This document shows, piece by piece, positions 2,539 through 32,184 of a stretch of DNA of 33,430 nt. The stretch is from a virus, in IMG/VR virus record IMGVR_UViG_3300009285_001934, positions 1-33,430 of that record; one strand, given 5' to 3'. The stretch's first letter is position 1; the number at the start of each line of letters is the position of its first letter. The translations under genes were made by a program, and so were the position numbers. Under the pieces are notes generated by a model. That model saw nothing but the letters and a program-made list of their open reading frames with translations. It did no database searches and had not been told where the DNA came from.

Positions 2539-2667
2539 ATGGATCAACCGACAAACGAAAAAAGATACTGGACACCGCGCACATACCTAGTGTTACGCAA
2601 TGGGAAGCAGATTGGTGCGTGGACGACCACTATCCTTGATCCCAAGATTCGACTCATTTACGCATAA
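2539..2667 (+). CDS. Small protein, unknown, coupled to pseB
   Basis: A 42-residue frame whose TAA shares one base with the ATG of the next gene (TAATG). The sequence MDQPTNEKRYW...YLVLRNGKQIGAW...LDPKIRLIYA looks like a short antiparallel beta protein with many aromatic and basic residues. There is no clear Shine-Dalgarno immediately upstream; an AGGTGAGAG lies about 20 bases before the ATG. The one-base stop/start junction is the main reason to believe it. Function unknown. It could instead be only a leader frame that delivers ribosomes to pseB. Confidence 0.45.
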   Translation: MDQPTNEKRYWTPRTYLVLRNGKQIGAWTTTILDPKIRLIYA

Positions 2668-3515
2668 TGCTCAACACAAAGACTAGGCCGCTTGTTGTTG
2701 CAATAACGGGAGGGACTGGGAGCTTGGGGAATGCTCTAACGAAACACCTCCTGTCGCTTCCAACCATCGGAAGGATTCGCATCATCTCCCGTGATGAGTT
2801 CAAGCAGTCCACGATGGCAGAGACGTTCACGGACAATCGTATGCGGTTCTTCGTTGGGGACGTTCGCGACGAAGATCGTATGATCGATGCACTCAGTGGG
2901 GCCGATGTTGTGGTCCACGCCGCAGCCATGAAACAGGTACCGGCGTGTGAGTACAACCCGTGGGAAGCCGTCAAGACGAACATCATGGGGACGCAAAGCG
3001 TCATTTCTGCCTGTATCAAGAACGGCGTGAAGAAGGCGGTATTTGTTTCAACAGACAAGGCGGTTGATCCGGTAAATCACTACGGAACGACCAAGAAGGT
3101 CGCCGAGAACCTCTGGCTCTATGCGGACTACACCAAGACGAACTTCGCCATCTCGCGCTGGGGGAACATCCTGTACTCACGAGGATCAGTCATCCCCATC
3201 TTCCAAGAGCAAGCGAAAACCGGAACACTGACAATCACCCACACTGATATGACGCGGTTCCTCCTCACGCTCGAGGAAGCGACGAAGTACCTCTGGGCGT
3301 GCATTGAGAAGATGAACGGTGGGGAAACTTTCATCCCATCGTGGCTCAAGAGCGCCAGAATACTCGACATCGCTCGGGCTATCGCGCCAGAAGCAACTAT
3401 CAAGGTCATCGGTGTTCGGAAGGGTGAGAAGATACACGAAACACTCGGAGACGGGTATCACTCCAACGACCCCAAGAGACTCCTGACATTTGAGGAAGTA
3501 AAGGCGCTTCTATGA
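2667..3515 (+). CDS. pseB: PseB-like UDP-GlcNAc 4,6-dehydratase (inverting)
   Basis: A 282-residue extended short-chain dehydrogenase of the FlaA1/PseB/CapD type. The Rossmann glycine motif is ITGGTGSLGNAL (13-24), an acidic GDVRDEDRM follows at 64-72, AAAMKQVPACEYNP (85-98) is the PseB/CapD signature, STDKA at 128-132 supplies the Asp-Lys pair, and the catalytic YxxxK is Y139-K143. GVRKGEKIHE near the C-terminus is the family's substrate-binding end motif. It converts UDP-GlcNAc to the 4-keto-6-deoxy-AltNAc sugar, the first step of pseudaminic acid synthesis. Length is somewhat below the usual ~330. It overlaps the next gene by 4 bases. Confidence 0.88.
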   Translation: MLNTKTRPLVVAITGGTGSLGNALTKHLLSLPTIGRIRIISRDEFKQSTMAETFTDNRMRFFVGDVRDEDRMIDALSGADVVVHAAAMKQVPACEYNPWEAVKTNIMGTQSVISACIKNGVKKAVFVSTDKAVDPVNHYGTTKKVAENLWLYADYTKTNFAISRWGNILYSRGSVIPIFQEQAKTGTLTITHTDMTRFLLTLEEATKYLWACIEKMNGGETFIPSWLKSARILDIARAIAPEATIKVIGVRKGEKIHETLGDGYHSNDPKRLLTFEEVKALL

Positions 3516-4105
3516 ACCCACACGAGGTTACCAAACAGTTCGAGAAAGCCGTTGCTGAATACACCGGCGCACCGTACGCCATTGCCACGACATCCTGCAC
3601 GATGGCGCTGCTCCTCGCCTGCGCCTACCACAAGGTCATCAAGGTCACTATTCCAAAGCGAACCTACATCTCGGTCCCCATGAGTATTATTCACGCCGGA
3701 GGCAAGGTCAGATTTGATGATCGGGAGTGGAAAGGAACCTACCAGCTCAAGCCCTACCCCATCTGGGACTCCGCCCGCTGGTTCTCATCAGGAATGTACC
3801 AAATGCCTGGTCAGATGATGTGCGTCTCGTTCCACTGGTCAAAGACGCTTGGCATAGGACAGGGTGGTGCTATACTTCATGATGATCCCAGGGCAGATAT
3901 TTGGCTCAAGAAAGCCAGATTTGATGGCAGGACAGAGGGCATTGAACCAAAGGACGATGAGTTCCCATTCCTCGGCTGGCACGCCTACATGAGTCCCCGC
4001 GATGCCGCCGAAGGACTCTCGCGCCTCGCCCTGCTTCCAAAGGACAACGACCCAATTCCCAATGATCCATATCCTGATTTGAGTACTATCAAGATATTCC
4101 AATGA
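3512..4105 (+). CDS. DegT/DnrJ/EryC1-type PLP aminotransferase, short (PseC-like)
   Basis: A 197-residue protein that matches the N-terminal large domain of sugar aminotransferases. The opening FEKAVAEYTGAPYAIATTSCTMAL gives the fold's cofactor-binding start, PIWDSARWF holds the PLP-contacting Asp, and SFHWSKTLGIGQGGAIL contains the Schiff-base Lys. The WHAYMSPRDAAEGLSRLALL segment matches the usual end of the large domain (NYRMSDIQAALGLSQL-like). It stops there, so the C-terminal small domain of about 150 residues is missing. By position it would be PseC, which aminates the PseB product using glutamate. Whether the short form is active alone is unknown. It overlaps both neighbours by 4 bases. 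Confidence 0.82.
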   Translation: MNPHEVTKQFEKAVAEYTGAPYAIATTSCTMALLLACAYHKVIKVTIPKRTYISVPMSIIHAGGKVRFDDREWKGTYQLKPYPIWDSARWFSSGMYQMPGQMMCVSFHWSKTLGIGQGGAILHDDPRADIWLKKARFDGRTEGIEPKDDEFPFLGWHAYMSPRDAAEGLSRLALLPKDNDPIPNDPYPDLSTIKIFQ

Positions 4106-4797
4106 GAACATTCCTCATCGCTGAGGTCGGCTCGAACCACGAAGGTTCGCTCAAACGCGCCCTCGAACTGATTGAGATAGCAAAAGACTCCGGCGCAGAT
4201 GCCGTGAAGTTCCAGCTCATCCCCCCATTCAAGCCCGACTGGATAGATAAGATTATCGAATACTGCAAAGACGACATTGAGTTCATGGCTTCCCCATTCA
4301 ATGAAGCAGGTGTCAACGCACTCCGAGGCAGGATCAAGCACTGGAAAATAGCCTCTACCGAAGCCGCCAATCCCGAGTTCGTGAAACTGGTACTCAAGGC
4401 CGCCAAGTTCGATACTGTATTCATCTCTGACGGCGCAACCGAGAATCCAAACAAGATCGTCGCTCTCGGCCCCAATGTTGTTCCTATGTCCTGCGTCGTG
4501 AGGTACCCAGCAGAAGTCTGGGATTACTCCTTCCAGTACCACGGACGCTGGGGACTCTCTGACCACACAGAGGGAAACCTGTACCTCCCAACCGTCGCTG
4601 TCGCAGCCGGAGCAGTCGCAGTAGAAAAGCACTTTACCGACGACCCAAAGAGAGATGGTCCCGATCATGCCTACGCCCTCACCCCAGTCCAGCTTACTGA
4701 AATGGTCCAATCTATCAGAATGACCGAGGCGCTATTCACGAATCCCAAAACAACCATCACTGACCACGTTGGCAGAACACTCCAATGGCCAACATAA
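4102..4797 (+). CDS. NeuB/PseI-like nonulosonic acid synthase without SAF domain
   Basis: A 231-residue TIM-barrel of the NeuB family. It opens FLIAEVGSNHEGSL (4-17), followed by SGADAVKFQ, FMASPFNEAG, KIASTEAANP, ISDGATENP, YPAEVWD and GLSDHTEGN, and AVAAGAVAVEKHFTDD near 171-186. These are the phosphoenolpyruvate and sugar-binding blocks of sialic/pseudaminic acid synthases. The reaction condenses a 6-carbon amino sugar with PEP. The C-terminal antifreeze-like (SAF) domain that normally completes a ~340-residue enzyme is absent. The gene overlaps the upstream aminotransferase by 4 bases and the GNAT gene by 13. Assignment to PseI rather than NeuB or LegI rests on the neighbours. Confidence 0.87.
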   Translation: MRTFLIAEVGSNHEGSLKRALELIEIAKDSGADAVKFQLIPPFKPDWIDKIIEYCKDDIEFMASPFNEAGVNALRGRIKHWKIASTEAANPEFVKLVLKAAKFDTVFISDGATENPNKIVALGPNVVPMSCVVRYPAEVWDYSFQYHGRWGLSDHTEGNLYLPTVAVAAGAVAVEKHFTDDPKRDGPDHAYALTPVQLTEMVQSIRMTEALFTNPKTTITDHVGRTLQWPT

Positions 4798-5195
4798 CTT
4801 TACGCAAAGTCGCGCCAGAGGATTTCCCATTCTTCTACGAACTGCTCGAAGACAAAACCCCCGAACAGAACATCTCCCATACTGCAATGCCCTCCTGGGA
4901 AGACCATGTAGACTTCAACACCGCCAATCCCTACGCAGAAGACTACGTACTCCTCAACGAGGATCATGTACGGGTAGGAAGAATCTACCTCACCCACAAG
5001 AACGAAATCGGCATCCACGTTCACTCTCGGTATCAAGGGAAGCACTACGGCACTGCGGCGCTGGTCACCCTCCTCGTAAAGCACAAAGACGAAGAACTCT
5101 ACGCCAACATCTCGCCCAAGAATGTTAGATCACAAGCCTTCTTTGAGAAGATGGGCTTTACCCTCCACCAGATGACGTACAAACTCGAACCATAA
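4785..5195 (+). CDS. GNAT acetyltransferase (PseH-like)
   Basis: A 136-residue GNAT-fold protein. It begins ITLRKVAPEDFPFFYELLED, the usual first strand and helix. The acetyl-CoA pyrophosphate loop is RYQGKHYGTAAL (82-93), a close match to the family Q/RxxGxG/A pattern, and it ends NVRSQAFFEKMGF (113-125), the classic GNAT motif B. In the pseudaminic pathway PseH acetylates the 4-amino group; this gene's place directly after the synthase fits that role, though GNAT specificity cannot be read from sequence. The start at 4785 lies inside the end of the synthase gene. It shares its last base with the next gene's ATG. Confidence 0.8.
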   Translation: MANITLRKVAPEDFPFFYELLEDKTPEQNISHTAMPSWEDHVDFNTANPYAEDYVLLNEDHVRVGRIYLTHKNEIGIHVHSRYQGKHYGTAALVTLLVKHKDEELYANISPKNVRSQAFFEKMGFTLHQMTYKLEP

Positions 5196-5593
5196 TGGGT
5201 CAAACAGGTAGACCGACAGTTATCACAGAGGAGACTGTCAGGAAACTTGAGAGTGCCTTCAAGATCGGCGCTAATGACTCAGAGGCCTGTCATTTCGCTA
5301 ACATTAGCCGAGAAACATACTATCGGCATCTCAAAGAGGATAAAGTCTTTAATGACAACATGACTCTAGCGAAAGAATGGCCAATCCTCGCTATGAAACG
5401 AACTATTGTTCAAGCAGCTGTAGATGGCGATAAGCAGTCTGCACAGTGGTACCTCGAGAGAAAGCGTAAGGACGAGTTCGCCCCACGGCAGGAACTCACT
5501 GGACCTGAGGGTATGCCGCTAGGGTATGTTCATTCGGGGGACATGAAGAAGCTCGACGAGGGTGTTGTAGAAACAGAACAACTACCCGAATGA
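5195..5593 (+). CDS. terS: Small terminase subunit-like DNA-binding protein
   Basis: A 132-residue protein. GRPTVITEETVRKLESAFKIGA, then EACHFANISRETYYRHLKED, make the helix-turn-helix typical of phage small terminase subunits (GRPTKLT...AGIS..TYY.W). A helical FNDNMTLAKEWPILAMKRTI block follows, and DGDKQSAQWYLERKRKDEFAPRQELTGPEG is the usual C-terminal region of this group. The small subunit recognises packaging sites and feeds DNA to the large subunit. Its position is unusual: it is inserted in the sugar operon and lies 3.2 kb upstream of terL, overlapping the GNAT gene by 1 base and the methylase by 4. A non-packaging regulator is a less likely alternative. Confidence 0.75.
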   Translation: MGQTGRPTVITEETVRKLESAFKIGANDSEACHFANISRETYYRHLKEDKVFNDNMTLAKEWPILAMKRTIVQAAVDGDKQSAQWYLERKRKDEFAPRQELTGPEGMPLGYVHSGDMKKLDEGVVETEQLPE

Positions 5594-6138
5594 ACCAACT
5601 CGAACGCTGGCAGGGGAGGTTCGGTGACGACTACAGCAAGCGGAACGACTACGATCCAAAACTACGACTCGAAGCGTTCAAGGCGCTCATCCCCAATGGT
5701 GTACGGTCAGTTCTTGAAGTAGGGTGCAACATCGGGAACAACCTGGAAACCATCAGCGCACTTGGTATACCCACTGTGGTAGGTATAGAACCCAATGTGA
5801 AAGCCGCTCGTATTGGCAAAGAACGAGGAAGAACCATCATCATCGGTGAAGCGTTAAATCTACCTATTGAGGGTTCAACCTACGACCTGGTGTTCACCGC
5901 CGGAGTCCTCATGCACATCCCAGACTACCGTGATGCGATGCGAGAGATATGGCGCGTGACACGGAAATACGCCCTCGCCATTGAATATATGGGCGACGGT
6001 GAATCAATCACCTACCACGGCAACGACGATATGCTGTGGAGGCGGAAGGGCTACGTGTACCCAGGAGAACTCATTGGGGCTGGTAAACTTGGTGAGGAGT
6101 TCGACCACTGCGGCTATCAGCTCTACAAGAAACAATGA
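5590..6138 (+). CDS. SAM-dependent methyltransferase, pseudaminic-acid-associated type
   Basis: A 182-residue class I methyltransferase. The opening ERWQGRFGDDYSKRN closely resembles the pseudaminic acid biosynthesis-associated methylase family (TIGR03587-like). The SAM glycine motif is VLEVGCNIGNN, acidic motif II is VVGIEPN, motif III is LVFTAGVLMHIPD, and the EIWRVTRKYALAIEYMGDG block follows. The C-terminus YRG-like stretch GNDDMLWRRKGYVYPGEL also fits. The family is found beside Pse genes in other bacteria, with a presumed sugar or pathway substrate that has not been fixed. Its presence strengthens the pathway call. ATGA overlaps on both sides couple it to terS and the cytidylyltransferase. 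Confidence 0.83.
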   Translation: MNQLERWQGRFGDDYSKRNDYDPKLRLEAFKALIPNGVRSVLEVGCNIGNNLETISALGIPTVVGIEPNVKAARIGKERGRTIIIGEALNLPIEGSTYDLVFTAGVLMHIPDYRDAMREIWRVTRKYALAIEYMGDGESITYHGNDDMLWRRKGYVYPGELIGAGKLGEEFDHCGYQLYKKQ

Positions 6139-6701
6139 CCACGATCATCATCCAAGCGCGCATGGGTTCCACGAGACTTCCTGGTAAGTCCATGCTCATG
6201 CTCGACGGCTACCCAGTCATCCAGCACGTGGTTGCACGCTGTCGCGCTACAAAATACCAGACGGTCGTAGCAACACCCAATACGCCCGATAACCGCCCCA
6301 TCTGGGATTTGTGCAAACAGAACGACGTTCAGCTCTACAAGGGACACCCAACAGACTTACTCAAACGATACGCAGACTGCGCCCGTATGATCGCCCCAGA
6401 CGCTGATGTCTTTATTCGCATCACCGCCGACTGCCCATTCATCAACACCGAACTGATCGTCCTCACTGAGCGGCTTTTCCGTATGTCCGGCGCAAAGGGG
6501 TACATGGGGTTCAACACTGTCCACGGACTCAACATTGAAGTGTTTGATCGTGATACCCTATTCGAGGCAGAGAAACACGGACCAGACGAGCATTGTACGA
6601 CGTGGATGCGCCAGAACTCTGACATCCCATTCCCATCATTGGAACTCAATACGCCAGAAGACTACGAACGACTCTCTACCATTTACCAACAGAAGATATG
6701 A
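6135..6701 (+). CDS. SpsF/PseF-like cytidylyltransferase
   Basis: A 188-residue nucleotidyltransferase. IIIQARMGSTRLPGKSM (4-20) is the CTP-binding signature shared by SpsF, NeuA and PseF-type enzymes. VVATPNTPDNRPIWDLCKQN, then YKGHPTDLLKRYADCA, and VFIRITADCPFI with the metal-binding Asp follow. The C-terminal GLNIEVFDRDTLFEAEK block matches the sugar-site region. It would charge the nonulosonic acid as a CMP-sugar, the donor form used by glycosyltransferases. It is shorter than the ~230 residues of most PseF/SpsF proteins. ATGA overlaps join it to the methylase and the amidotransferase. Confidence 0.84.
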   Translation: MTTIIIQARMGSTRLPGKSMLMLDGYPVIQHVVARCRATKYQTVVATPNTPDNRPIWDLCKQNDVQLYKGHPTDLLKRYADCARMIAPDADVFIRITADCPFINTELIVLTERLFRMSGAKGYMGFNTVHGLNIEVFDRDTLFEAEKHGPDEHCTTWMRQNSDIPFPSLELNTPEDYERLSTIYQQKI

Positions 6702-7690
6702 AACGATGCGCCCAGTGTGCGTTTCCCCTCGGTGTACGACCAGGACACATTGATGGAGATACGGTGTGTGGAGCGTGTACCAATCAGGCACGAGCTGAGA
6801 GCTTCGACTGGGCTGGTCGTAGGCAGAAGCTCGAGGACATTTGCAACGATCTACGAGACACAAAGCCCTACTCGTGTGTTGTAGCAGTATCGGGTGGCAA
6901 GGACTCCACAGTGATCGTTGCCAGACTGGTTGAGAAGTACCACCTCAAGCCGCTACTTGTCACAGTCACAGACGAGTTCACCCACACAAAGGCAGGTACG
7001 CACAACGCAGAAAACATCGCTCACCGGTTCAACCTTGACCATGTGGTGTGGCGCTGTGAGCCTGAGACATTCCGCACAGAGACGAAGAAGGACTTTGAGA
7101 ACGACCTACACCCCCTCAAGTGGATCGAGGAGAAGATCTACTCCGTCCCGATTATGATGGCAAAGGCGCTCAAGATACCCGCAGTGTTCTTTGGTGAGAA
7201 CTCTGCGTTCCAGTATGGTACGTCAGCCACACTGGACTACGAGCATCCCCTGTCTACAGATGACGTGAGGGTGTACTACTACTTCGCCTTTGAGAAATAC
7301 TCAGAGCTAGGGAACCGCGAGGAAGCCAAGAAGTACGGCTTCATTGACCTAGATGACACCGGTGAGTGGTTCCGGCAGGGGCATATCGAGAACTACACCC
7401 AACAGGACTCCGTAGCCTATGTAGTGCAGTTGTGGACGAAGTTCGTCAAATACGGCTTCCAACGTGTGTCAGACATCGCCAGCCGGTACGCCAGGGCAGG
7501 ACATATCACCCGAGATCAAGCACTCTCCTACATCCACGAACGTGACTGGCAGTGCGATCCACGTGCTAAACGGGACTTCTGCGACACCATTGGCATAACC
7601 GAGGAACACTTTGATCGTGTTGTAGACGACCACGCGAACCTCGACATCGTACAGAAAGATGTCAATGGACAGTGGAAGTTGCGCTCGTAG
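6698..7690 (+). CDS. pseA: PseA-like N-acetyl sugar amidotransferase
   Basis: A 330-residue protein of the PseA/WbuX/LegG group (N-acetyl sugar amidotransferase). A zinc knuckle C4-C7-C24-C27 opens the protein, the ATP pyrophosphatase PP-loop SGGKDS lies at 65-70, and TDEFTHTKAGTHNAEN, then FGENSAFQYGTS and a long helical C-terminus complete the usual architecture. In Campylobacter PseA is needed for the acetamidino form of pseudaminic acid. It closes the sugar operon; after its TAG comes promoter P3. A dedicated glutaminase partner (HisH-like) is not visible here, so the ammonia source is open. Confidence 0.86.
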   Translation: MKRCAQCAFPLGVRPGHIDGDTVCGACTNQARAESFDWAGRRQKLEDICNDLRDTKPYSCVVAVSGGKDSTVIVARLVEKYHLKPLLVTVTDEFTHTKAGTHNAENIAHRFNLDHVVWRCEPETFRTETKKDFENDLHPLKWIEEKIYSVPIMMAKALKIPAVFFGENSAFQYGTSATLDYEHPLSTDDVRVYYYFAFEKYSELGNREEAKKYGFIDLDDTGEWFRQGHIENYTQQDSVAYVVQLWTKFVKYGFQRVSDIASRYARAGHITRDQALSYIHERDWQCDPRAKRDFCDTIGITEEHFDRVVDDHANLDIVQKDVNGQWKLRS

Positions 7691-8789: not shown

Positions 8790-10183
8790 AAACGGCAACA
8801 GTCAACGGGAATCTAGTAGAAATCGTCCCCTTCGATGCACGCCCTCATCAGCGAGAACTCGACAGTCTCATATGGGGTCGGGCGTCGACCAAGCAGGGTC
8901 CGCAGTTCCTTGTCCCCGTTGATCATAGACGTTCCGGCAAGTCCACCGCACTTTTCAATAGCCTCGTAAAGGTCTGCGCCTCACCGGATAAGGCGGTCGT
9001 GGGTCAGTACATGTACCTCTATCCACAGCAGAAGAAGATACGCGAGCATATCTGGGACAACCCAGAAATCCTGACGAAGTTCCTGCCTACCTCACAGGTG
9101 AGCAAGAAGGACGACCAGCGCATGGTGTTGTACTTCCGTAGTGGCAGTCAGCTCATCTTCGACGGGACCGATGAGAACCCAGACAAGCACCGTGGAGGCA
9201 ATGGACGGGGGTATGCAATCGATGAGTATGACGACCAGCAGTCGCGCATATTCACCGAGATTGTCCGACCAATCGTCGAGGCAAATAAAGGGTTCGTCGT
9301 ACTGTCTGGTACACCGCGCGGAGTCAAACATCTTCACGATGCGTATCTTGCGGGACAAGACGAGACTCGCGAGATGTGGTGGTCACGCCTGCTACCAGCA
9401 ACAGTCTCAACGAATGACGACGGGACGCGCCTGTTCACGGATGAGCAGCTTGCCGAGATTGAGCGAGACTACATCACAGACGGTATCGGTGCAGCGTTCG
9501 CGCAGGAATACCTCTGCTCATTCAATCAGGATGCGAGTCAGGTGTTCAGGAACATTGACAAGGTATGCACGGAGAAACCCCAAGAGGCAGTACCAGGACA
9601 CAGCTACCGAATCGGCAGCGATCCGGCACTCACCACAGACTACTGGGCGAACTCGGTACTTGACCTCAATACGTTCCAGGAAGTAGCGCTCGAGCGTTTC
9701 CAGCCGCACTCCACCGCATTGGGTGAAGCACGGACGGAAGCGTTAGTACGCAGGTACAACAACGCCGAACTGCTCATTGACTCATCAGGACTCGGGCTAC
9801 CCATTGCCGACCACCTCCGAGACAGGGGTATAGGTGTTATCCCACTCCCCACCGGAGCGAACAAGGAACGGCTCATCACGAACCTCTCGATTGCCGTCGA
9901 TGCTGCCACGGCTCACTTCACAGACGACTCGGTGGGCAAGGAAGAAATGCGCGAGTACTCATTCAACCGGACACCAATGGGTCGTTACCAGTTCTCAGCC
10001 CCAGAGGGTAGGCACGATGATACAGTCATCGCACGCGCCCTCGCGGTCTGGGAGTTGGGAGCGCCCATGCCACTTCCTGAGCAGGGTGGCATAGTGCAAG
10101 ACCTCCGCAACTCATACTACGGAGAGAAAGCCAGACCAACCAACACATTCTACGGACAGAACCATAAACCACGCGGAGCATGA
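8786..10183 (+). CDS. terL: Terminase large subunit
   Basis: A 465-residue packaging ATPase-nuclease. The ATG at 8786 overlaps the HNH stop (ATGA), which makes it a better start than the in-frame ATG at 8726 inside that gene. ATPase: a deviant Walker A DHRRSGKS (46-53), Walker B YAIDE (143-147), and motif III SGTPRG (174-179). The RNase H-like nuclease has Asp at GSDPA (D279), LIDSSG (D332) and HDD (D411/D412). It translocates DNA into the prohead through the portal and cuts the concatemer. The basic HRR before the P-loop Gly is typical of this podovirus-like branch. It is coupled to the portal gene by ATGA. Confidence 0.95.
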   Translation: MKTATVNGNLVEIVPFDARPHQRELDSLIWGRASTKQGPQFLVPVDHRRSGKSTALFNSLVKVCASPDKAVVGQYMYLYPQQKKIREHIWDNPEILTKFLPTSQVSKKDDQRMVLYFRSGSQLIFDGTDENPDKHRGGNGRGYAIDEYDDQQSRIFTEIVRPIVEANKGFVVLSGTPRGVKHLHDAYLAGQDETREMWWSRLLPATVSTNDDGTRLFTDEQLAEIERDYITDGIGAAFAQEYLCSFNQDASQVFRNIDKVCTEKPQEAVPGHSYRIGSDPALTTDYWANSVLDLNTFQEVALERFQPHSTALGEARTEALVRRYNNAELLIDSSGLGLPIADHLRDRGIGVIPLPTGANKERLITNLSIAVDAATAHFTDDSVGKEEMREYSFNRTPMGRYQFSAPEGRHDDTVIARALAVWELGAPMPLPEQGGIVQDLRNSYYGEKARPTNTFYGQNHKPRGA

Positions 10184-12147
10184 AAGACGAAAAAGAGACA
10201 CCCGCATACGTCGCCTCACAAAAGGAGCAAGACGACATTGAGGACGCAATGCGCTTTAGAAAGGAATCATACGAACAGACGCGCACAGAGCGTCAGTCGT
10301 GGCACAACGCATATTTACGATACAAGCTCTCGCGATCACTTTCCGAATACGACTACATCCCAGATGTCCCCGTTGCGCTGACGTACGACTCCGTTGAGCG
10401 CATAGCGACATCACTCCCAGGTAAGGAGTTCCACTTCCGCGCCAAGCCGACTGGTGATGAGGACATGATCAACGCCCTGAAGTTCACGGAAGTCCTGAAC
10501 CACGTATGGACGAGTCCCGACATCATGGACGGACCATCAAAGCTTGAGAACATCAAGAAGCAGATGGCGCTGTTCGGGACTGCCTTTGCGCAGGTGTACT
10601 GGGAAACGAAGATCGACGAGGATGGGAACGTCATCAAGTCTGATCCGGCACTCTGGCCCCTCAACATCTTCGATGTGTACTACAACAAGTTCGTACCAGA
10701 GGTTGAAGACCTTCCCGAAATCGGCTACCAGTCCATCATCTCGCTCTCATGGTTGAAGCGGAACGGGAAGGATTTGGGCTACAAGAACATCAAGTACGTC
10801 AAAGGATTCAGCCCCAAGACAAAGAGCGATGATGAGGACTCATCCTCTATCGACTCCGAGGAAACAACGAGTGGGAAGCAGAAGAAGGTGAACGACCTGG
10901 CAAAGATATTCGAGATACAAAGCGACGATCGGGTTGTGACTATTGCTCTCGACGACGCTGGTCCTGTGTGGCTTCGCAACTCAAAGAACAAGATCGGTCG
11001 CAAGAATGTGGCAATCTTCCGTCTCAAGCGCCACCCACTCCCCAACCGGCTTCTCGGTATTACTGACGTATCACGTGGGGGTCAGATTGAGGACGCAATC
11101 CAGCGTCAGTTGAACCAAGCAACATTCAACACGCTCCTCGTTGATAACCCGAACTTTACCTACGACCGGACAGACCGGAACATCGACCCACGGACGTTCA
11201 TCACGGCACCTGGAGCTGGTATCCCCCGTGGACGGGACGCAAACTCTATCACCCCAATCCAGTTCAACTCGCACCTCGAACAGTCTCTGACGATGATCAA
11301 TGCGCTCATGGAGCGCTACAAGCGTGTCGTGAACACCCCTGACGTTATGCAGGGTATTGGGGATCGCAATGTAGACACCGCTACGGCGACAAACATCCTC
11401 GATGCGAACTCAAAGGCGAGTACTGAGAAGATCGTTGATGGGATGCGCTCGAGTATCATGAGGATCGGACTCATCGTCAAAGCCCTGTACAAGGAGTACG
11501 GCGATGACTCACTGACCATCACCGTACGGACACCGGAACTCCTGGAAGCGCTTGGCGCTGGTAGTGTTGATTCAGCAGAAGTCATGGTCAACACCGCCGA
11601 GACGTTCAACATGGACCGCGACATCGACATCGACGTTGACTTCACGGTACAAAACAAGGCAATCCTCTCGCGCCGTATCGTTGAGTGGATGACACTCACC
11701 GCAAAGGACCAGAGCATCCCGCCCTCGTTGCGTCTCAAGTCCTACCAGAAGTGGCTGGAGTACAACGACCTCGACGACCTGGCGATGGAGTTCCAAGAAC
11801 AGTCAAACTCGATACAGACCTCCGACTTGGGGCAGGCCGATCAGGAAAACCAAGAGATGGCCAATGGTTCTGCACTTCCACCGACCCCGAACGCCACGCC
11901 AGCCCACACCCAGCGCCACATCGAGTTCATGCGCCGCGCAGACACGGGCCCTGACATCGACCGCGTACTCCGAGCGCACATCGAGGGAGAAATAATGCAG
12001 GCGCAGGGTCAACAGCAACAGCCCATGCAGCCAGGACAACCTATGCAGCAAGGACCAATGCAACAGGGTCAGCCCCAGGGTCCAATGTCGCAGGGGAGTG
12101 ATGCTCCGCTTGCCGAACAATCCACCATTGGTATGCCAATGCTATGA
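10180..12147 (+). CDS. Portal protein
   Basis: A 655-residue protein directly after terL, in the canonical portal position. It has portal-like features: an N-terminal helical region (RKESYEQTRTERQSWHNAYLRYK), YDSVERIATSLPG, an ENIKKQMALFGTAFAQVYWE core helix, and the DVSRGGQIEDAIQRQLNQATFN block followed by RYKRVVNTPDVMQGIGDRNVDTATATNIL, which matches the stem/wing region of podovirus-type portals. The last ~55 residues are Gln/Pro/Gly/Met-rich low-complexity sequence, probably a disordered tail. The dodecameric portal is the DNA channel and the docking site for terminase and connectors. It overlaps the next gene by 4 bases. Confidence 0.9.
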   Translation: MKDEKETPAYVASQKEQDDIEDAMRFRKESYEQTRTERQSWHNAYLRYKLSRSLSEYDYIPDVPVALTYDSVERIATSLPGKEFHFRAKPTGDEDMINALKFTEVLNHVWTSPDIMDGPSKLENIKKQMALFGTAFAQVYWETKIDEDGNVIKSDPALWPLNIFDVYYNKFVPEVEDLPEIGYQSIISLSWLKRNGKDLGYKNIKYVKGFSPKTKSDDEDSSSIDSEETTSGKQKKVNDLAKIFEIQSDDRVVTIALDDAGPVWLRNSKNKIGRKNVAIFRLKRHPLPNRLLGITDVSRGGQIEDAIQRQLNQATFNTLLVDNPNFTYDRTDRNIDPRTFITAPGAGIPRGRDANSITPIQFNSHLEQSLTMINALMERYKRVVNTPDVMQGIGDRNVDTATATNILDANSKASTEKIVDGMRSSIMRIGLIVKALYKEYGDDSLTITVRTPELLEALGAGSVDSAEVMVNTAETFNMDRDIDIDVDFTVQNKAILSRRIVEWMTLTAKDQSIPPSLRLKSYQKWLEYNDLDDLAMEFQEQSNSIQTSDLGQADQENQEMANGSALPPTPNATPAHTQRHIEFMRRADTGPDIDRVLRAHIEGEIMQAQGQQQQPMQPGQPMQQGPMQQGQPQGPMSQGSDAPLAEQSTIGMPML

Positions 12148-12461
12148 ACACCCAAGAACAGCAAGAGCGCCTGACCGAAGTCCTCGAACTCTACGGGGAA
12201 CTCCAGCACTTCAAGGGTACGAAGCTCTACAAGGCCATCACCGACTTGATTGACGATGAGCTAGGGAAGATGAAATACGCCTACGACTGCACGACCCTCG
12301 AGCAGATTGCAATGCTCAAGGGAAAGCGCGAAGGGCTGACGATCATCACTGACATCCTTGAGCAAATAGCATCAACCGGTGAGCGAGCAAAGGAAGAAGC
12401 CGAGGCAGCGTCGGAGAAAAAGAGACGAGAAGAAATGGAAATAGACTCTACGGACCTCTAG
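12144..12461 (+). CDS. Small coiled-coil protein between portal and scaffold
   Basis: A 105-residue, strongly helical protein. Residues 5-35 (QQERLTEVLELYGELQHF...KAITDLIDDEL) and 55-105 (TTLEQIAMLKGKREGLTIITDILEQIAS...EEAEAASEKKRREEME) look like two helices or coiled coils with a highly charged C-terminus. No family is recognised; small helical proteins at this position are common in podovirus-like phages and may help scaffold or portal assembly. It is coupled to the portal gene by ATGA and is followed by two strong hairpins. Confidence 0.7.
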   Translation: MNTQEQQERLTEVLELYGELQHFKGTKLYKAITDLIDDELGKMKYAYDCTTLEQIAMLKGKREGLTIITDILEQIASTGERAKEEAEAASEKKRREEMEIDSTDL

Positions 12462-12464
12462 GTT

Positions 12465-12533
12465 CCGTATCCGTTCCTCATGCCTAGATGGGGAGCGGGT
12501 ACGGACACTGGAATAAACGGTCGAACGGTGTCC
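12465..12533 (+). promoter_or_regulatory. Tandem hairpins ahead of the scaffold gene
   Basis: Hairpin 1: 12465-12481 pairs with 12488-12504 over 17 bp (including three G-T wobbles) around the loop GCCTAG. Hairpin 2: GGACACTG (12503-12510) pairs with CGGTGTCC (12526-12533), one wobble, 15-base loop. The two share two bases. No T-run follows, so a simple intrinsic terminator is unlikely. An mRNA processing or stability element, or a translation control for the scaffold gene at 12561 (which lacks a clear Shine-Dalgarno), fits better. Confidence 0.6.
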
Positions 12534-14944: not shown

Positions 14945-15002
14945 CCTCGGTTTGTGGGGTGTCTAGCAGACGCAAAACACCCCACACCGTCTGCAACCGA
15001 GG
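14945..15002 (+). promoter_or_regulatory. Nested/pseudoknot-like RNA fold in the capsid 3' UTR
   Basis: An outer 8-bp stem CCTCGGTT (14945-14952) / AACCGAGG (14995-15002) encloses two overlapping stems: A, GTGGGGTGT (14954-14962) / ACACCCCAC (14977-14985), 9 bp; and B, GCAGACG (14966-14972) / CGTCTGC (14988-14994), 7 bp. Each is perfect. The 5' arm of B lies in the loop of A. Connecting loops are 3, 4 and 2 bases, tight for both stems at once, so the fold is either a compact pseudoknot or a two-state switch. No T-run follows. Possible roles are 3'-end protection of capsid mRNA or control of the next gene. Confidence 0.65.
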
Positions 15003-15689: not shown

Positions 15690-16681
15690 ACCGCGCAACG
15701 ATACTGAACTTCAATGGCATACTCGACCCTCTCTACCAGACGTTCGAGCAGGCAGAACTGACCGACATTACCGAGCCAGGGAAACGCCCAGACTGTCTCA
15801 TCACATGGACGGACTACCCGCAGGACATGAAGATGCTCTGCCTCGCGGCACTCCAACAGGGTGTACCAACATTCATGGTCCAGCACGGTCGCAGGGCTAT
15901 GCGTGACTACTGGACGCACCGGGGAGAGCCAACGTCGGTCGCCGCTTTCGTCTGGGGGAGTAAGGATCACGAAGATGCACTCACTGGACACTGGTCGCCA
16001 GAACAGGTGTTTCGTGTTGGTGCGCCGTGGTTTCACTACCGCCCCAAACCGCAGGAGGAACGAGGTACGGTTATCTATGACGTTCCCCATTGGAACATAG
16101 ATACCAAAGAATCCATATTGACGTGGGCTGCACTCAAGCGCATTGGTGGCATACGCCCGATTGCCAAGATGATTGCCCCATCAGAACAGAAGCAAAACAA
16201 CTATATCGGGGAGCAATGCATCACTTACCGGAACGAGCCGGGGCATATCGAGTCGACGTACGACCTACTCAAACGAGCATCATGTGTCGTGACGATGATG
16301 GAAAGCACGCTGGAGCTGATGGCGATGTCGCTCAACGTCCCTGTCGTCCACGTCAAAGGATTCAAGCACAAAGAACTCCCCGGTACGTGGCAGGGGGTTG
16401 AAGATACATTGCCCCAGAAGGGTTCGATTGCTTGTGAGCGTGGGGAGATGTCAGACGCAATAGCGGAAGCCATGAAGCGCCCCAGTAAACTCATGAAAGA
16501 CGCTCACGAACGGCTCATTGAGGACGCTGGTGACCCAGATAAAGACACCCCAGTACGATCCATCACCACGCTCATTGGAGACATGGTAGACACCTACCAT
16601 GAAACCCACGCAGTAGGACCGAGACTCAATATGTTCGAGAAAGAAGCACACAATGCGCCGGATACTATCATTCAGAAATGA
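15686..16681 (+). CDS. GT-B-fold glycosyltransferase-like protein
   Basis: A 331-residue protein. The ATG at 15686 overlaps the previous TGA, preferred over the in-frame start at 15647. The blocks LITWTDYPQDMKMLCLAALQ, then GVPTFMVQHGRRAM (59-72), FVWGSKDHEDAL, and VFRVGAPWFHY are typical of GT-B enzymes related to capsule-polysaccharide or glycerophosphate transferases. The C-terminal half ends with STLELMAMSLNVPVVHVKG, the donor-site helix of such folds. It could be a glycosyl- or glycerophosphotransferase; a PseG-like UDP-sugar hydrolase (the pathway step missing upstream) is a weaker alternative. It overlaps the next gene by 29 bases. Confidence 0.65.
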   Translation: MNRATILNFNGILDPLYQTFEQAELTDITEPGKRPDCLITWTDYPQDMKMLCLAALQQGVPTFMVQHGRRAMRDYWTHRGEPTSVAAFVWGSKDHEDALTGHWSPEQVFRVGAPWFHYRPKPQEERGTVIYDVPHWNIDTKESILTWAALKRIGGIRPIAKMIAPSEQKQNNYIGEQCITYRNEPGHIESTYDLLKRASCVVTMMESTLELMAMSLNVPVVHVKGFKHKELPGTWQGVEDTLPQKGSIACERGEMSDAIAEAMKRPSKLMKDAHERLIEDAGDPDKDTPVRSITTLIGDMVDTYHETHAVGPRLNMFEKEAHNAPDTIIQK

Positions 16682-17759
16682 CTGGAACGGTCTAGGACCG
16701 AAGGGAACCGACCTCATCGGTGGGGTTGGGTACTACCGTATACAGAAACCCCTGTCGTTTCTTGGTCGGAAATACAGTGTGTTTGACTTGGGCGACATCT
16801 CAACCGCGCAGAAGAATCTCAAAAGGGTAGGCAAGGACTGGTCCGAGGATGAACTAGTGCCGAACCTCATCAAGGACTCTGACTTGGTGTTCATGAAGAA
16901 CATCTCACACCCAGGGGGGCTGGCGTGGTTCGCAGGAGCGTGTGACTTCTATAACAAGCCCCTGATCGTGGACATGGACGACAACTACCTCGCCGTAGAC
17001 GACCTGCACGAGAAGCGCGACTACTTCAAGGAAACGGCGATAGCGAATATCACTCACAAGGAGCTGTTCAAGGCCGCTACTGCCATGACGGTCAGCACTG
17101 AACCACTCGTTGATGTCTATAAGGAGTTCAATACAAACGTCCACGTCCTGCACAACTACAACGACGCGAACGACTGGAAATACAAACGGTTCAAGCGCCC
17201 AGACGGAAAGATCGTTATTGGGTGGGCTGGGAGTCAGACCCACGAGGCAGACTTCCACGTTATTGAGCCGGTCATCAGGGCTATATGGAAGAAGTATGGC
17301 AAGAAGGTCATATTCGCGATCTGCGGGGGATTGCCGGTACACCTGACCGACGGACTCCCACATGGGTCGTACGCGGTGTTCTCCGGTACTCGGACCATGA
17401 GGGACTACCCAGCTCGCCTTGCATCCTGGGGGTTCGACATAGGACTCGCACCACTCAAAAAGTCTGTCTTCAACGATGGGAAGGGACATGGGAAGTGGAT
17501 GGAGTACGCTATGTACGATATTCCCCTTGTTGCGACGAACTACGGACCCTACGCGCGCGTGGTTGAGAACGAACGAACTGGTCTGCTGGTAGACAGCACC
17601 GAGGAATGGGTGGATGCAATCTCTTGGCTTGTTGAGGACGAGGAACTACGAATGAGAATTGGCAAAGCAGCAAAGAGTGATGTGAAGAAGCGCTGGCAGT
17701 GGTCTTCTAATAGTTGGAGATGGGATGAAATCTTCAAGAAGTACCATTCGTTTCGATGA
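16653..17759 (+). CDS. GT4-like glycosyltransferase 1
   Basis: A 368-residue GT-B glycosyltransferase. Its N-terminal half has VGYYRIQKPLSFLG, LVFMKNISHPGG and KPLIVDMDDN, a strand with an Asp-rich turn; KIVIGWAGSQTHEADF opens the C-terminal nucleotide-sugar domain. KWMEYAMYDIPLVATNYGPY is the usual donor-binding block, and RTGLLVDSTEEWVDAI matches the GT4 end. It starts inside the previous gene and shares ATGA with its downstream paralogue. The likely substrate is a nucleotide sugar, perhaps the CMP-nonulosonate made upstream, with a virion protein as acceptor; both points are inferred from context only. Confidence 0.83.
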   Translation: MRRILSFRNDWNGLGPKGTDLIGGVGYYRIQKPLSFLGRKYSVFDLGDISTAQKNLKRVGKDWSEDELVPNLIKDSDLVFMKNISHPGGLAWFAGACDFYNKPLIVDMDDNYLAVDDLHEKRDYFKETAIANITHKELFKAATAMTVSTEPLVDVYKEFNTNVHVLHNYNDANDWKYKRFKRPDGKIVIGWAGSQTHEADFHVIEPVIRAIWKKYGKKVIFAICGGLPVHLTDGLPHGSYAVFSGTRTMRDYPARLASWGFDIGLAPLKKSVFNDGKGHGKWMEYAMYDIPLVATNYGPYARVVENERTGLLVDSTEEWVDAISWLVEDEELRMRIGKAAKSDVKKRWQWSSNSWRWDEIFKKYHSFR

Positions 17760-18880
17760 AGAAAGTCCTCGCGATCAACAACCAGTTCCCGACCGAGGAA
17801 AACAAGAAATACGGTCTGACCTCAGCAGTCTCGTACTACCGACAAGTGATGCCAGGAAGACACCTTGAGGGGTACGAGTTCCACCACCTCGGACACCAGC
17901 TCATTGATCTCGATGTACATACTGCCGAAACAAGGATCGGCAACATGGTCCACGCGCATGACATCGTATTCACTAAGCACCTCGACAACCCGACTGGTAT
18001 TTATATGCTCCTCGGGGCGTGTGACTACTACGACCGACCCCTCATTGTAGACTTCGACGACGACGTATTCGCCACCGACGGCAAGGAACACAACCTGTAC
18101 GTCTACCCAGAGGACAGCGACGCTCGGCGCTACCTGGAAGTGTTATTGCGGGAAGCCACCGCCATTACCGTCTCCGTCCCGAGTTTGGTTCCGGTGTACC
18201 AGAAATACAACGACCATGTTTACGTCTGCCCCAATGCCGTCGATCCCAAAGATTGGAATGGGCAGAGGACTCACCACAAACGTCTGACCATAGGCTGGCC
18301 TGCGTCTACCGGACACATCGTCGATCATGAAGTACTCGAACCGGTTGCCACGGAGATCGCCAAGTGCCACCCCGATATTGTCTTCTCCTTCATGGGGCAT
18401 TATCTCCCCGAACACATGGGGTTCCTTCATCGGAAGAACTGGGAGCTGAAACCAGGGGTGCTATGGTGGGAGGGACACCCGACCGACAAGCGCACATACC
18501 CATCGGTACTGGCTGACTTCGGCGCTGACATTGGTGTGGGACCACTCATAGACTCACGCTACAACGCCTCACGATCATTGGCAAAGTGGTTCGAGTACAC
18601 CATGACCGGCACGCCGATGGTCGCCAGCGACTACGGTCCCTACAAAGATTTGAGCAATGGTGAGGATGTCTACCTCGCCGGACCTGTGGACAAGTGGATC
18701 GAGTACCTATCACTATTGATCGAGAAACCAGATGAGCGACGAAGAATCGCCGACAACGCAAAACGCCGAATTGAGCGCGAATACACCATCCAGCGGGCAA
18801 TCCCAGCCTGGCGAGCTGCATTCGAGGCGGTCCGAGGGTTCCGAAAGTTCGCACCCACAGATTTTCGAGGAAAAGGATAA
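17756..18880 (+). CDS. GT4-like glycosyltransferase 2 (paralogue of 1)
   Basis: A 374-residue GT-B protein clearly related to its neighbour: LLGACDYYDRPLIVDFDDD mirrors the first enzyme's GACDFYNKPLIVDMDDN, and KWFEYTMTGTPMVASDYGPY mirrors KWMEYAMYDIPLVATNYGPY. LTIGWPASTGHIVDHEVLEP opens the C-terminal domain. The pair probably arose by tandem duplication and then diverged to different donors or linkages. The last 149 bases also code, in another frame, for the N-terminus of the next gene. The final residues RGFRKFAPTDFRGKG lie beyond the usual fold. Confidence 0.83.
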   Translation: MKKVLAINNQFPTEENKKYGLTSAVSYYRQVMPGRHLEGYEFHHLGHQLIDLDVHTAETRIGNMVHAHDIVFTKHLDNPTGIYMLLGACDYYDRPLIVDFDDDVFATDGKEHNLYVYPEDSDARRYLEVLLREATAITVSVPSLVPVYQKYNDHVYVCPNAVDPKDWNGQRTHHKRLTIGWPASTGHIVDHEVLEPVATEIAKCHPDIVFSFMGHYLPEHMGFLHRKNWELKPGVLWWEGHPTDKRTYPSVLADFGADIGVGPLIDSRYNASRSLAKWFEYTMTGTPMVASDYGPYKDLSNGEDVYLAGPVDKWIEYLSLLIEKPDERRRIADNAKRRIEREYTIQRAIPAWRAAFEAVRGFRKFAPTDFRGKG

Positions 18881-31007: not shown

Positions 31008-31211
31008 ATGAAAGACAAGATTCTCGACATCCTCGGCTCGATCCGTTTCTACATTGTCACCTTCGCGTGGCTTGCTGACTACCTCGGACTGGTAGCAGAT
31101 TCAGGGTTCGATATCGTCGTCCTCCTCAATCAGCTCGGACTGTGGCTCGGTTCCGTGGTCGTGATCGGTTCTGCTGATAGCGTCGCAACCAAGTTCTCCG
31201 GCAAGAAGTAA
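31008..31211 (+). CDS. Small membrane protein, second holin-like
   Basis: A 67-residue protein preceded by the strong ribosome site GGGGGTGAT. Two hydrophobic stretches, about residues 12-27 (IRFYIVTFAWLADYLGLV) and 35-55 (IVVLLNQLGLWLGSVVVIG), suggest one or two membrane helices. The basic end KFSGKK is holin-like. It closes the lysis cassette, 11 bases before a terminator. A holin or antiholin role is inferred. Confidence 0.65.
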   Translation: MKDKILDILGSIRFYIVTFAWLADYLGLVADSGFDIVVLLNQLGLWLGSVVVIGSADSVATKFSGKK

Positions 31212-31221
31212 GTCAGAAAAG

Positions 31222-31250
31222 GGCGGTCCAGTCGAAACCGGGCCGCCTTT
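31222..31250 (+). terminator. Intrinsic terminator of the late operon
   Basis: GGCGGTCC (31222-31229) pairs with GGGCCGCC (31240-31247), 8 bp with one G-T wobble, 10-base loop, followed by TTT. AAAA precedes the stem, so it could also work from the other strand. It lies just after the last lysis gene. Confidence 0.75.
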
Positions 31251-31798
31251 GCGTGTTGCTGACCGTCCTTGTTCAAGACAGTGATCTGTATGGGGACGGG
31301 TAGCGTCAACACACACCCCATTCGTACACCCTCTGATTCTTTTTTTCAATATAAATACTCCCCGGAGTCCTTCTTCATGAACTCCACCGGAGCGCGAATC
31401 TCCCAAGAAGCCGTCTTGGTACTCCGACGACCTATATCCGATGTCTCTCGGAGGTCGTTGTGCTTCCCTCTCCTTGCTTACCTGATCAGGGGCAAGGGTT
31501 CGTTCCTGAACGGGGAAGCCAGTAGGCATACCGTCCAAGACACCGCTCCACCGTTTGCGCGACCCTCGTTCCTTCGCCGGAGGGTAGGCGACCCGTATGA
31601 AGTCCACACATTTGACTGGCATCCAACCGGTGGCTGTTGTGGTTCGCCGCACCGATCCGGTCGGTAATAAGTACAAGCCCCGGGGCATTCTGGTTCCCGG
31701 GGCGTTGCATGAAAAGCGGCCCAGAATGCACTCACACGCTATCATGGGGGCAGAAAGCCGTCAAGTGCCTACCCCAAAAGATATCCACAGGGTGGGGC
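31251..31798. other. Intergenic region without convincing genes
   Basis: About 550 bases between the late terminator and promoter P2. Frames on both strands exist but lack ribosome sites and family resemblance. The content is: hairpin CCGTCC (31263-31268) / GGACGG; hairpin ATGGGG (31290-31295) / CCCCAT (31316-31321); a T-run TTTTTTT (31340-31346) followed by an AT-rich TATAAATA; then the folded block at 31403-31729 annotated separately; then a GC-rich run-up to P2. It may hold an origin, a packaging signal or genome ends, but no iterons or long direct repeats are visible. Confidence 0.6.
31403..31729 (+). ncRNA. Candidate structured noncoding RNA
   Basis: A run of strong stems. CCAAGA/TCTTGG (31403-31419), competing with GTCTTGG (31413-31419) / CCAAGAC (31535-31541). 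A long hairpin at 31425-31460: an 8-bp outer stem (ACGACC 31427-31432 / GGTCGT 31453-31458 plus two further pairs) stacked on TCCGA/TCGGA. A three-way junction closed by GCTTCCC (31462-31468) / GGGAAGC (31513-31519), with arms CCTTGC/GCAAGG and GTTC/GAAC. GCCAGT (31518-31523) / ACTGGC (31615-31620) and CATAC (31527-31531) / GTATG (31595-31599) enclose ACCCTC (31562-31567) / GAGGGT (31580-31585). Last comes the H-type pseudoknot at 31677-31729. The strand is inferred from the pseudoknot loop lengths. No known RNA family is recognised, no promoter is certain, and the real ends are unknown. Confidence 0.4.
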
Positions 31799-31827
31799 TT
31801 GCAACGTATACAGGGGTGTGCTAGTGT
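31799..31827 (+). promoter_or_regulatory. Sigma70-like promoter P2 of the next early operon
   Basis: TTGCAA (31799-31804), a 17-base spacer, then TAGTGT (31822-31827) in the extended context TGCTAGTG, identical over eight bases to the extended -10 at 2324. The expected start is near 31834. The first gene follows at 31858 with AAGGGGAA as its ribosome site. Confidence 0.65.
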
Positions 31828-31833
31828 GTATAC
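31806..31833 (+). promoter_or_regulatory. Paired GTATAC palindromes flanking the -10 (candidate operator)
   Basis: GTATAC at 31806-31811 and again at 31828-31833, centre to centre 22 bp, about two helical turns on the same DNA face. One copy lies in the promoter spacer, the other at the expected transcription start. This is the layout expected for a dimeric repressor that blocks P2. The repressor gene is not identified in the window. Confidence 0.45.
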
Positions 31834-31857
31834 AACATCCGTAAGGGGAACACGACC

Positions 31858-32184
31858 ATGACCGATCTAATCGAAACGCCGAAACTCATCAACGTCCTCG
31901 AAGAATGGAAAATGGAACTCCACTCTATCGCCGACGAAGTAGTAGCAAGAGATAACGCGGAACTGTCCGTACGGATTCGCGAACTCGCCGGAGAGATTGC
32001 GATACACGCCAGCGCCATGCGCACCGACCTCCGCGCGTTTGAGAAGGCAGTCGCCGACGAAGCATCACAGACAACGTGCGCTGAGTGCGGACGGATCGAC
32101 CCAGACGACTCACGCATCCGTTCAGGAATGAAGTGTGGAGCGTGCGCGTACGAAGTATCAGGCGCTCGAACCGTAGAAGCATGA
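31858..32184 (+). CDS. Helical protein with C-terminal zinc ribbon
   Basis: A 108-residue protein, first gene after P2. Residues 1-70 are helical (LINVLEEWKMELHSIADEVVARDNAELSVRIRELAGEIAIHASAM). The C-terminus has CAECG...CGACAYE, four Cys in two CxxC-type pairs about 20 residues apart (C74/C77 and C92/C95), a likely zinc ribbon. Function unknown; early phage proteins of this type often bind nucleic acid or host transcription factors. The next gene starts in its stop codon (ATGA). Confidence 0.7.
   Translation: MTDLIETPKLINVLEEWKMELHSIADEVVARDNAELSVRIRELAGEIAIHASAMRTDLRAFEKAVADEASQTTCAECGRIDPDDSRIRSGMKCGACAYEVSGARTVEA

Follow-up and report, generated by a model that had tools for sequence, protein, structure and literature searches.

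The window analysed here is the whole of the IMG/VR contig IMGVR_UViG_3300009285_001934 (33,430 bases), which belongs to a tailed phage and carries, essentially all on the plus strand, genes for terminase, a protein at the portal position, the major capsid protein, tail proteins, an M23 peptidase and a small holin-like protein. The gene for RtcB (tRNA-ligase / RNA ligase; 39-608) is truncated by the left end of the contig, and the genome is thus incomplete. Sugar epimerase, aminotransferase-like, methyltransferase-like and QueC-like genes lie ahead of the terminase (2667-7690), and two tandem glycosyltransferase genes stand amid the structural genes (16653-18880); both sets are kept in relatives. 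Gaps of more than 400 bases are found at only two places in the contig, 2180-2666 and 31212-31857, and the second of these, which extends from the end of the late (lysis) operon to the first early gene, is the subject of this report (Table 1). The protein encoded by the last gene of the lysis operon shares 51% and 46% identity with proteins of two relatives (G004 and G005, see below), and is presumed to be a holin from its size, its hydrophobicity and its location after the M23 peptidase.

Table 1. Genes, signals and predicted structures in and beside the gene-free stretch (window coordinates)
Feature	Position	Strand	Basis or remark
Holin-like membrane protein, 67 aa	31008..31211	+	ORF; last gene of the late (lysis) operon
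Bidirectional terminator hairpin, UUCG loop	31219..31250 (stem ~31222-31247)	both	predicted; proposed RNA 3' end
Proposed noncoding RNA, ~510 nt	31214..31731	-	inferred from promoter and terminator
Stacked hairpin adjoining the terminator	31250..31315	either	predicted fold
Long-range helix 31319-31335/31811-31826	31319..31826	+	~15 pairs, p 0.93
Hairpin	31425..31460	both	pair probability ~0.9-0.98
Three-way junction	31462..31519	better defined on +	p >0.85
Nested inverted repeats, H-type pseudoknot-capable	31677..31729	either	stems of 8 and 9 pairs
Promoter TTGACG-N17-TAGCGT, extended -10 TGA	31764-31736	-	motif match, sigma70 matrix; predicted
Early promoter TTGCAA-N17-TAGTGT	31799..31827	+	motif match; predicted
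First early gene, 108 aa, zinc-ribbon-like C-terminal end	31858..32184	+	

The earlier note had described 31251-31798 as free of genes, and this part of its claim holds, except that the true span is the whole of 31212-31857 (646 bases), which really is noncoding on both strands. The open reading frames listed for this span are spurious, on either strand. Codon scores of its six frames range from -0.34 to +0.08, compared with 0.19 to 0.54 for the genes of the contig, and the 214-aa ORF on the minus strand is flat in both GC and purine content across codon positions, with no codon periodicity. Searches of Pfam and PHROGs and tblastn against phages, using both long frames of the gap, gave no match. 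The gap includes a stop-free run of 183 codons, such as 2.5% of shuffles also show. A protein gene in the gap was rejected on the codon statistics.

The terminator hairpin lies at one end of the stretch, and the predicted early promoter at 31799 at the other. The U-run of the terminator hairpin is CTTTTCTG on the minus strand, which is canonical, as against TTTGCGT on the plus strand. By the early promoter there are GTATAC half sites at 31806-31811 and 31828-31833, possibly representing an operator. The pattern TTG-N17-TGNTAGNG, which was defined post hoc after the sites were seen, occurs at three sites on the two strands of the contig (+2304, +31799 and the minus-strand promoter), all inside the two large gaps, while 0.17 sites are expected and none of 100 shuffles reached three. 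On a general sigma70 matrix the minus-strand promoter ranks 7th in the contig and is the top site in either large gap; judged by matrix score alone, seven contig sites are as good and ~0.13 such sites are expected in the gap (an estimate), so that the support for this promoter is moderate. Taken together, the minus-strand promoter and the better U-run on the same strand make a minus-strand RNA of ~510 nt the likeliest transcription unit. Such an RNA would run away from the early promoter and towards the lysis genes, and with its end at ~31214, compared with the holin end at 31211, it would overlap with the holin mRNA only through read-through.

The earlier note had seen stem after stem in this stretch, and the hairpins, the junction, the long-range stem and the pseudoknot-capable repeats that it named were indeed found; the excess of folding as a whole is weak (z about -2.4). 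The minimum free energy of the 548-nt segment 31251-31798 gave z -2.40 for the plus strand and -2.38 for the minus strand, ranking 2nd among 43 contig windows of the same length (an estimate from 20 shuffles); among 333 windows of 200 nt the stretch ranks only ~22nd. The fold of the proposed minus-strand RNA (31731 to ~31214) gave z -2.35 to -2.46. Shuffles and coding segments have just as many confident pairs and the same positional entropy. The stretch holds real hairpins, and its overall fold is modestly better than chance on either strand. Among the predicted unpaired bases the fraction of A is 0.38 on the minus strand and 0.29 on the plus strand. Like the noncoding status and the promoter and terminator motifs, these hairpins are read directly from the sequence.

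Two features of the stretch are beyond chance, the pseudoknot-capable repeats and the long-range helix, both chosen after the fold was seen. The repeats form an 8-bp stem (31677-31684/31696-31703), the loop of which (31685-31693) pairs over 9 bp with 31721-31729; an arrangement with at least 8 perfect pairs in both stems arose in one of 6000 shuffles of the region, and the contig has a single such locus. With loop lengths of 0, 2 and 17, the plus strand should, on this geometric argument, accommodate the pseudoknot with less steric strain than the minus strand. A helix as long as the long-range one, spanning more than 400 nt, was found in 1 of 80 shuffles. The 3' arm of the long-range helix and the -10 box of the early promoter share bases. 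The three-way junction consists of the stem 31462-31469/31512-31519 and the hairpins 31472-31497 and 31498-31511.

No phage carrying the stretch was detected by blastn of the region against phages and plasmids, by a search of viral contigs for exact 26-mers or by scans anchored on the endolysin, early and holin proteins. Scans with the capsid and terminase proteins identified six relatives, G001 (42.4 kb), G002, G003, G004, G005 (40.6 kb) and G006, none of which has sequence similarity to the stretch beyond chance; bacterial genomes scanned for relatives yielded none. G004 has a peptidase gene directly after the holin. G001 has a gene-free stretch of 381 nt (L013 984-1355, minus strand of its contig; z -6.4), for which an Rfam search gave no match. 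Its neighbours are a holin-like gene, accompanied by a small zinc-ribbon ORF, on one side and a gene of unknown family on the other. In G005, of which the folding scan covered part of the genome, a gene-free stretch downstream of the holin and HNH genes (L040 ~9950-10550) gave z -6.6 over 200 nt and -5.3 over 391 nt, and holds at its right end a predicted minus promoter, TTGACG-N17-(TGC)TAAGGT in reverse-complement orientation, which ranks 18th on the sigma70 matrix. Structural alignment was performed with a home-made Sankoff-type aligner, using shuffles and genome segments as controls. Plus-strand alignments with both G001 and G005 fell within the range of these controls, and the minus-strand alignment was at chance level for G005 and marginal for G001, with scores as high in 1 of 45 shuffles and 4 of 25 genome segments. 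These alignments thus do not demonstrate common descent with the G001 and G005 stretches.

Truly conserved RNA structure does exist in this group of phages. Just 3' of the major capsid gene, before the next gene, we identified a covarying RNA element (14945-15002, plus strand) common to five phages, the window, G001, G003, G004 and G005, with compensatory changes (other copies: L016:1492-1551(-), L010:5179-5240(+), L012:7046-7116(-) and L040:377-445(-)). It consists of an outer stem of 7-8 pairs, not found in G005, and a hairpin of 10-11 pairs, with an apical-loop segment of 6-8 nt complementary to a 3' bulge. Since hairpin and bulge are separated by one to a few bases, there seems to be too little linker for a classical pseudoknot in cis; the loop and bulge may instead pair alternately, as a switch, or between molecules, as a dimer. 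Models built from the element find one copy per genome and none in 31212-31857, and Rfam returned at its position only a chance microRNA match and no family. Elsewhere in the contig, a very stable long hairpin lies between the gene set at the portal position and the next gene (12447-12509), with hairpins at the equivalent position in G004 and G005. The other large gap has a promoter TTGACA-N17-TAGTGA and, ~60 bases past the likely start, a terminator hairpin (2396-2427) with TTTTCTTTCT; this segment (2304-2437) probably encodes a small RNA of ~100 nt.

We take the stretch to be a noncoding control region that separates the late lysis operon from the early genes, and consider it most likely, with a probability of roughly 0.4, that it also encodes a discrete minus-strand RNA of ~510 nt. 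A promoter resembling the early one in type would initiate this RNA near 31731, and it would end at the bidirectional terminator just past the holin stop codon. The RNA would fold as a chain of hairpins, and its 5' end could pair ~400 nt downstream. Presumably it would be made together with the early genes, and its likeliest effect, given that it converges on the lysis operon, would be to keep late and early transcription separate. To judge from its position, read-through would produce antisense RNA against the holin and endolysin mRNA, and the terminated, structured product may additionally work in trans. We infer transcription, timing, boundaries and function of this RNA from the following: the stretch is noncoding on both strands, the minus promoter scores best in either large gap and shares its motif with the sites at +2304 and +31799, the terminator is canonical on the minus strand, unpaired bases are A-rich on that strand, the RNA as delimited here has the fold z given above, and G005 has a comparable layout, a structured gene-free stretch with a minus promoter, downstream of its holin. 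Against it count the post hoc definition of the motif, a modest fold no better defined than those of shuffles, the empty homolog search, minus-strand structural alignments within the controls for G005 and marginal for G001, and the pseudoknot geometry and long-range helix, both of which suit the plus strand better. The discrete large RNA proposed in the earlier note is, at ~500 nt, compatible with the signals found, but these favour the minus strand and the excess of folding is modest.

Nearly as likely is a plain regulatory spacer that yields no discrete functional long RNA and consists of the late terminator, some local hairpins and the early promoter with an operator; proteins would then bind to the repeats at 31677-31729, or these would form a local barrier. 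In favour of this reading, a terminator lies at one end and a promoter flanked by GTATAC half sites at the other, confident pairs and entropy do not differ from those of shuffles, the sequence is not conserved in the relatives, and the gap at 2180-2666 is just such a region with promoter and terminator. However, in so packed a genome a spacer of 646 bases is long, and it would need neither the minus promoter nor repeats capable of a pseudoknot.

A large structured RNA of the kind proposed in the earlier note, read as a plus-strand molecule of GOLLD/ROOL-like scale, closed by the long-range helix and enclosing the three-way junction and the pseudoknot, we regard as unlikely. It agrees with the high pair probabilities of helix and junction, with the pseudoknot geometry, and with the strongly structured gene-free stretches past the holin in G001 and G005 (plus-strand z -6.4 and -5.3), but the plus strand has no convincing promoter after the terminator, the closing helix would occupy the -10 box of the early promoter, and the plus-strand structural alignments to G001 and G005 are at chance, with no Rfam match.

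Still less probable is an element acting at the DNA level, with the inverted repeats serving as DNA in a replication origin or a packaging site: a 22-base AT-rich run (31335-31357) and a single DnaA-box-like ATATCCACA at 31781 would fit it, but nine one-mismatch boxes of that kind are spread across the contig, no iterons were found, and the terminase genes are ~22 kb distant. As a replication origin the stretch was rejected, for it has neither a box cluster nor iterons. That the gap is the remnant of a decayed protein gene is very improbable, since neither long frame has codon bias, periodicity, or a family or tblastn match to set beside the 183-codon run.

If a discrete RNA is made, it would be an unclassified half-kilobase molecule that joins the few large noncoding RNAs of phages and has a tie to the change from early genes to lysis. 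If none is made, the stretch illustrates that ordinary folding in a GC-rich spacer of a phage can seem ornate by eye. It was the test of both strands, the shuffles and the polarity of the promoters that altered the reading of strand and boundaries.

With regard to known large RNAs, Rfam covariance models were searched against the window at E up to 5 and against the region at E up to 10, and returned chance-level small families only; no large-RNA family matches the stretch, and Rfam searches of relatives likewise gave chance-level hits only. The stretch is therefore at most a candidate for a GOLLD- or ROOL-like RNA, which it resembles in length and setting and not in covariance-model match or tRNA island. 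ROOL and GOLLD are phage-borne RNAs, often near tRNA islands, that form RNA cages; an example of ROOL is ~660 nt, many GOLLD members exceed 800 nt, and GOLLD was reported to increase during lysis (PMC12286853). An abundant 520-nt noncoding RNA of Lactobacillus salivarius, above 16S rRNA in level (PMC5643018), is counted as ROOL. The stretch resembles ROOL in being noncoding, ~500-660 nt, borne by a phage or mobile element and heavily hairpinned, with pseudoknot potential (PMC12286853; PMC5643018). It differs in the missing covariance-model match and tRNA island and in its weak excess of folding. ROOL is marked by a homo-oligomeric cage of RNA alone and by a conserved, covarying structure with several pseudoknots; in the stretch one pseudoknot candidate was seen, and the searches for homologs that would show covariation came back empty. 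No tRNA genes were found in this incomplete contig, and proximity to tRNAs is common, not obligatory, for ROOL. With GOLLD the likeness would be that of a large phage noncoding RNA; the gene-free span of 646 nt is below 800, no GOLLD covariance model matches (the conserved 3' region), and tRNAs are not nearby.

The phi29 packaging RNA is a structured noncoding RNA of a small tailed phage, from which the stretch differs in length and location, in matching no Rfam covariance model and in having no sign of a packaging role. It is rather doubtful that the stretch represents a new class, unrelated to GOLLD/ROOL, of ~500-nt structured phage RNA beside the lysis genes, present also, highly diverged, in G001 and G005. 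Phage antisense or convergent RNAs of the lambda OOP and aQ type have their own promoter on the strand opposing the target operon, plus a terminator. The stretch would be like them in that its predicted minus promoter runs toward the lysis operon and a terminator is present; it would differ from them in its predicted product, which at ~510 nt would end just before the opposing genes and would make antisense contact with them only through read-through.
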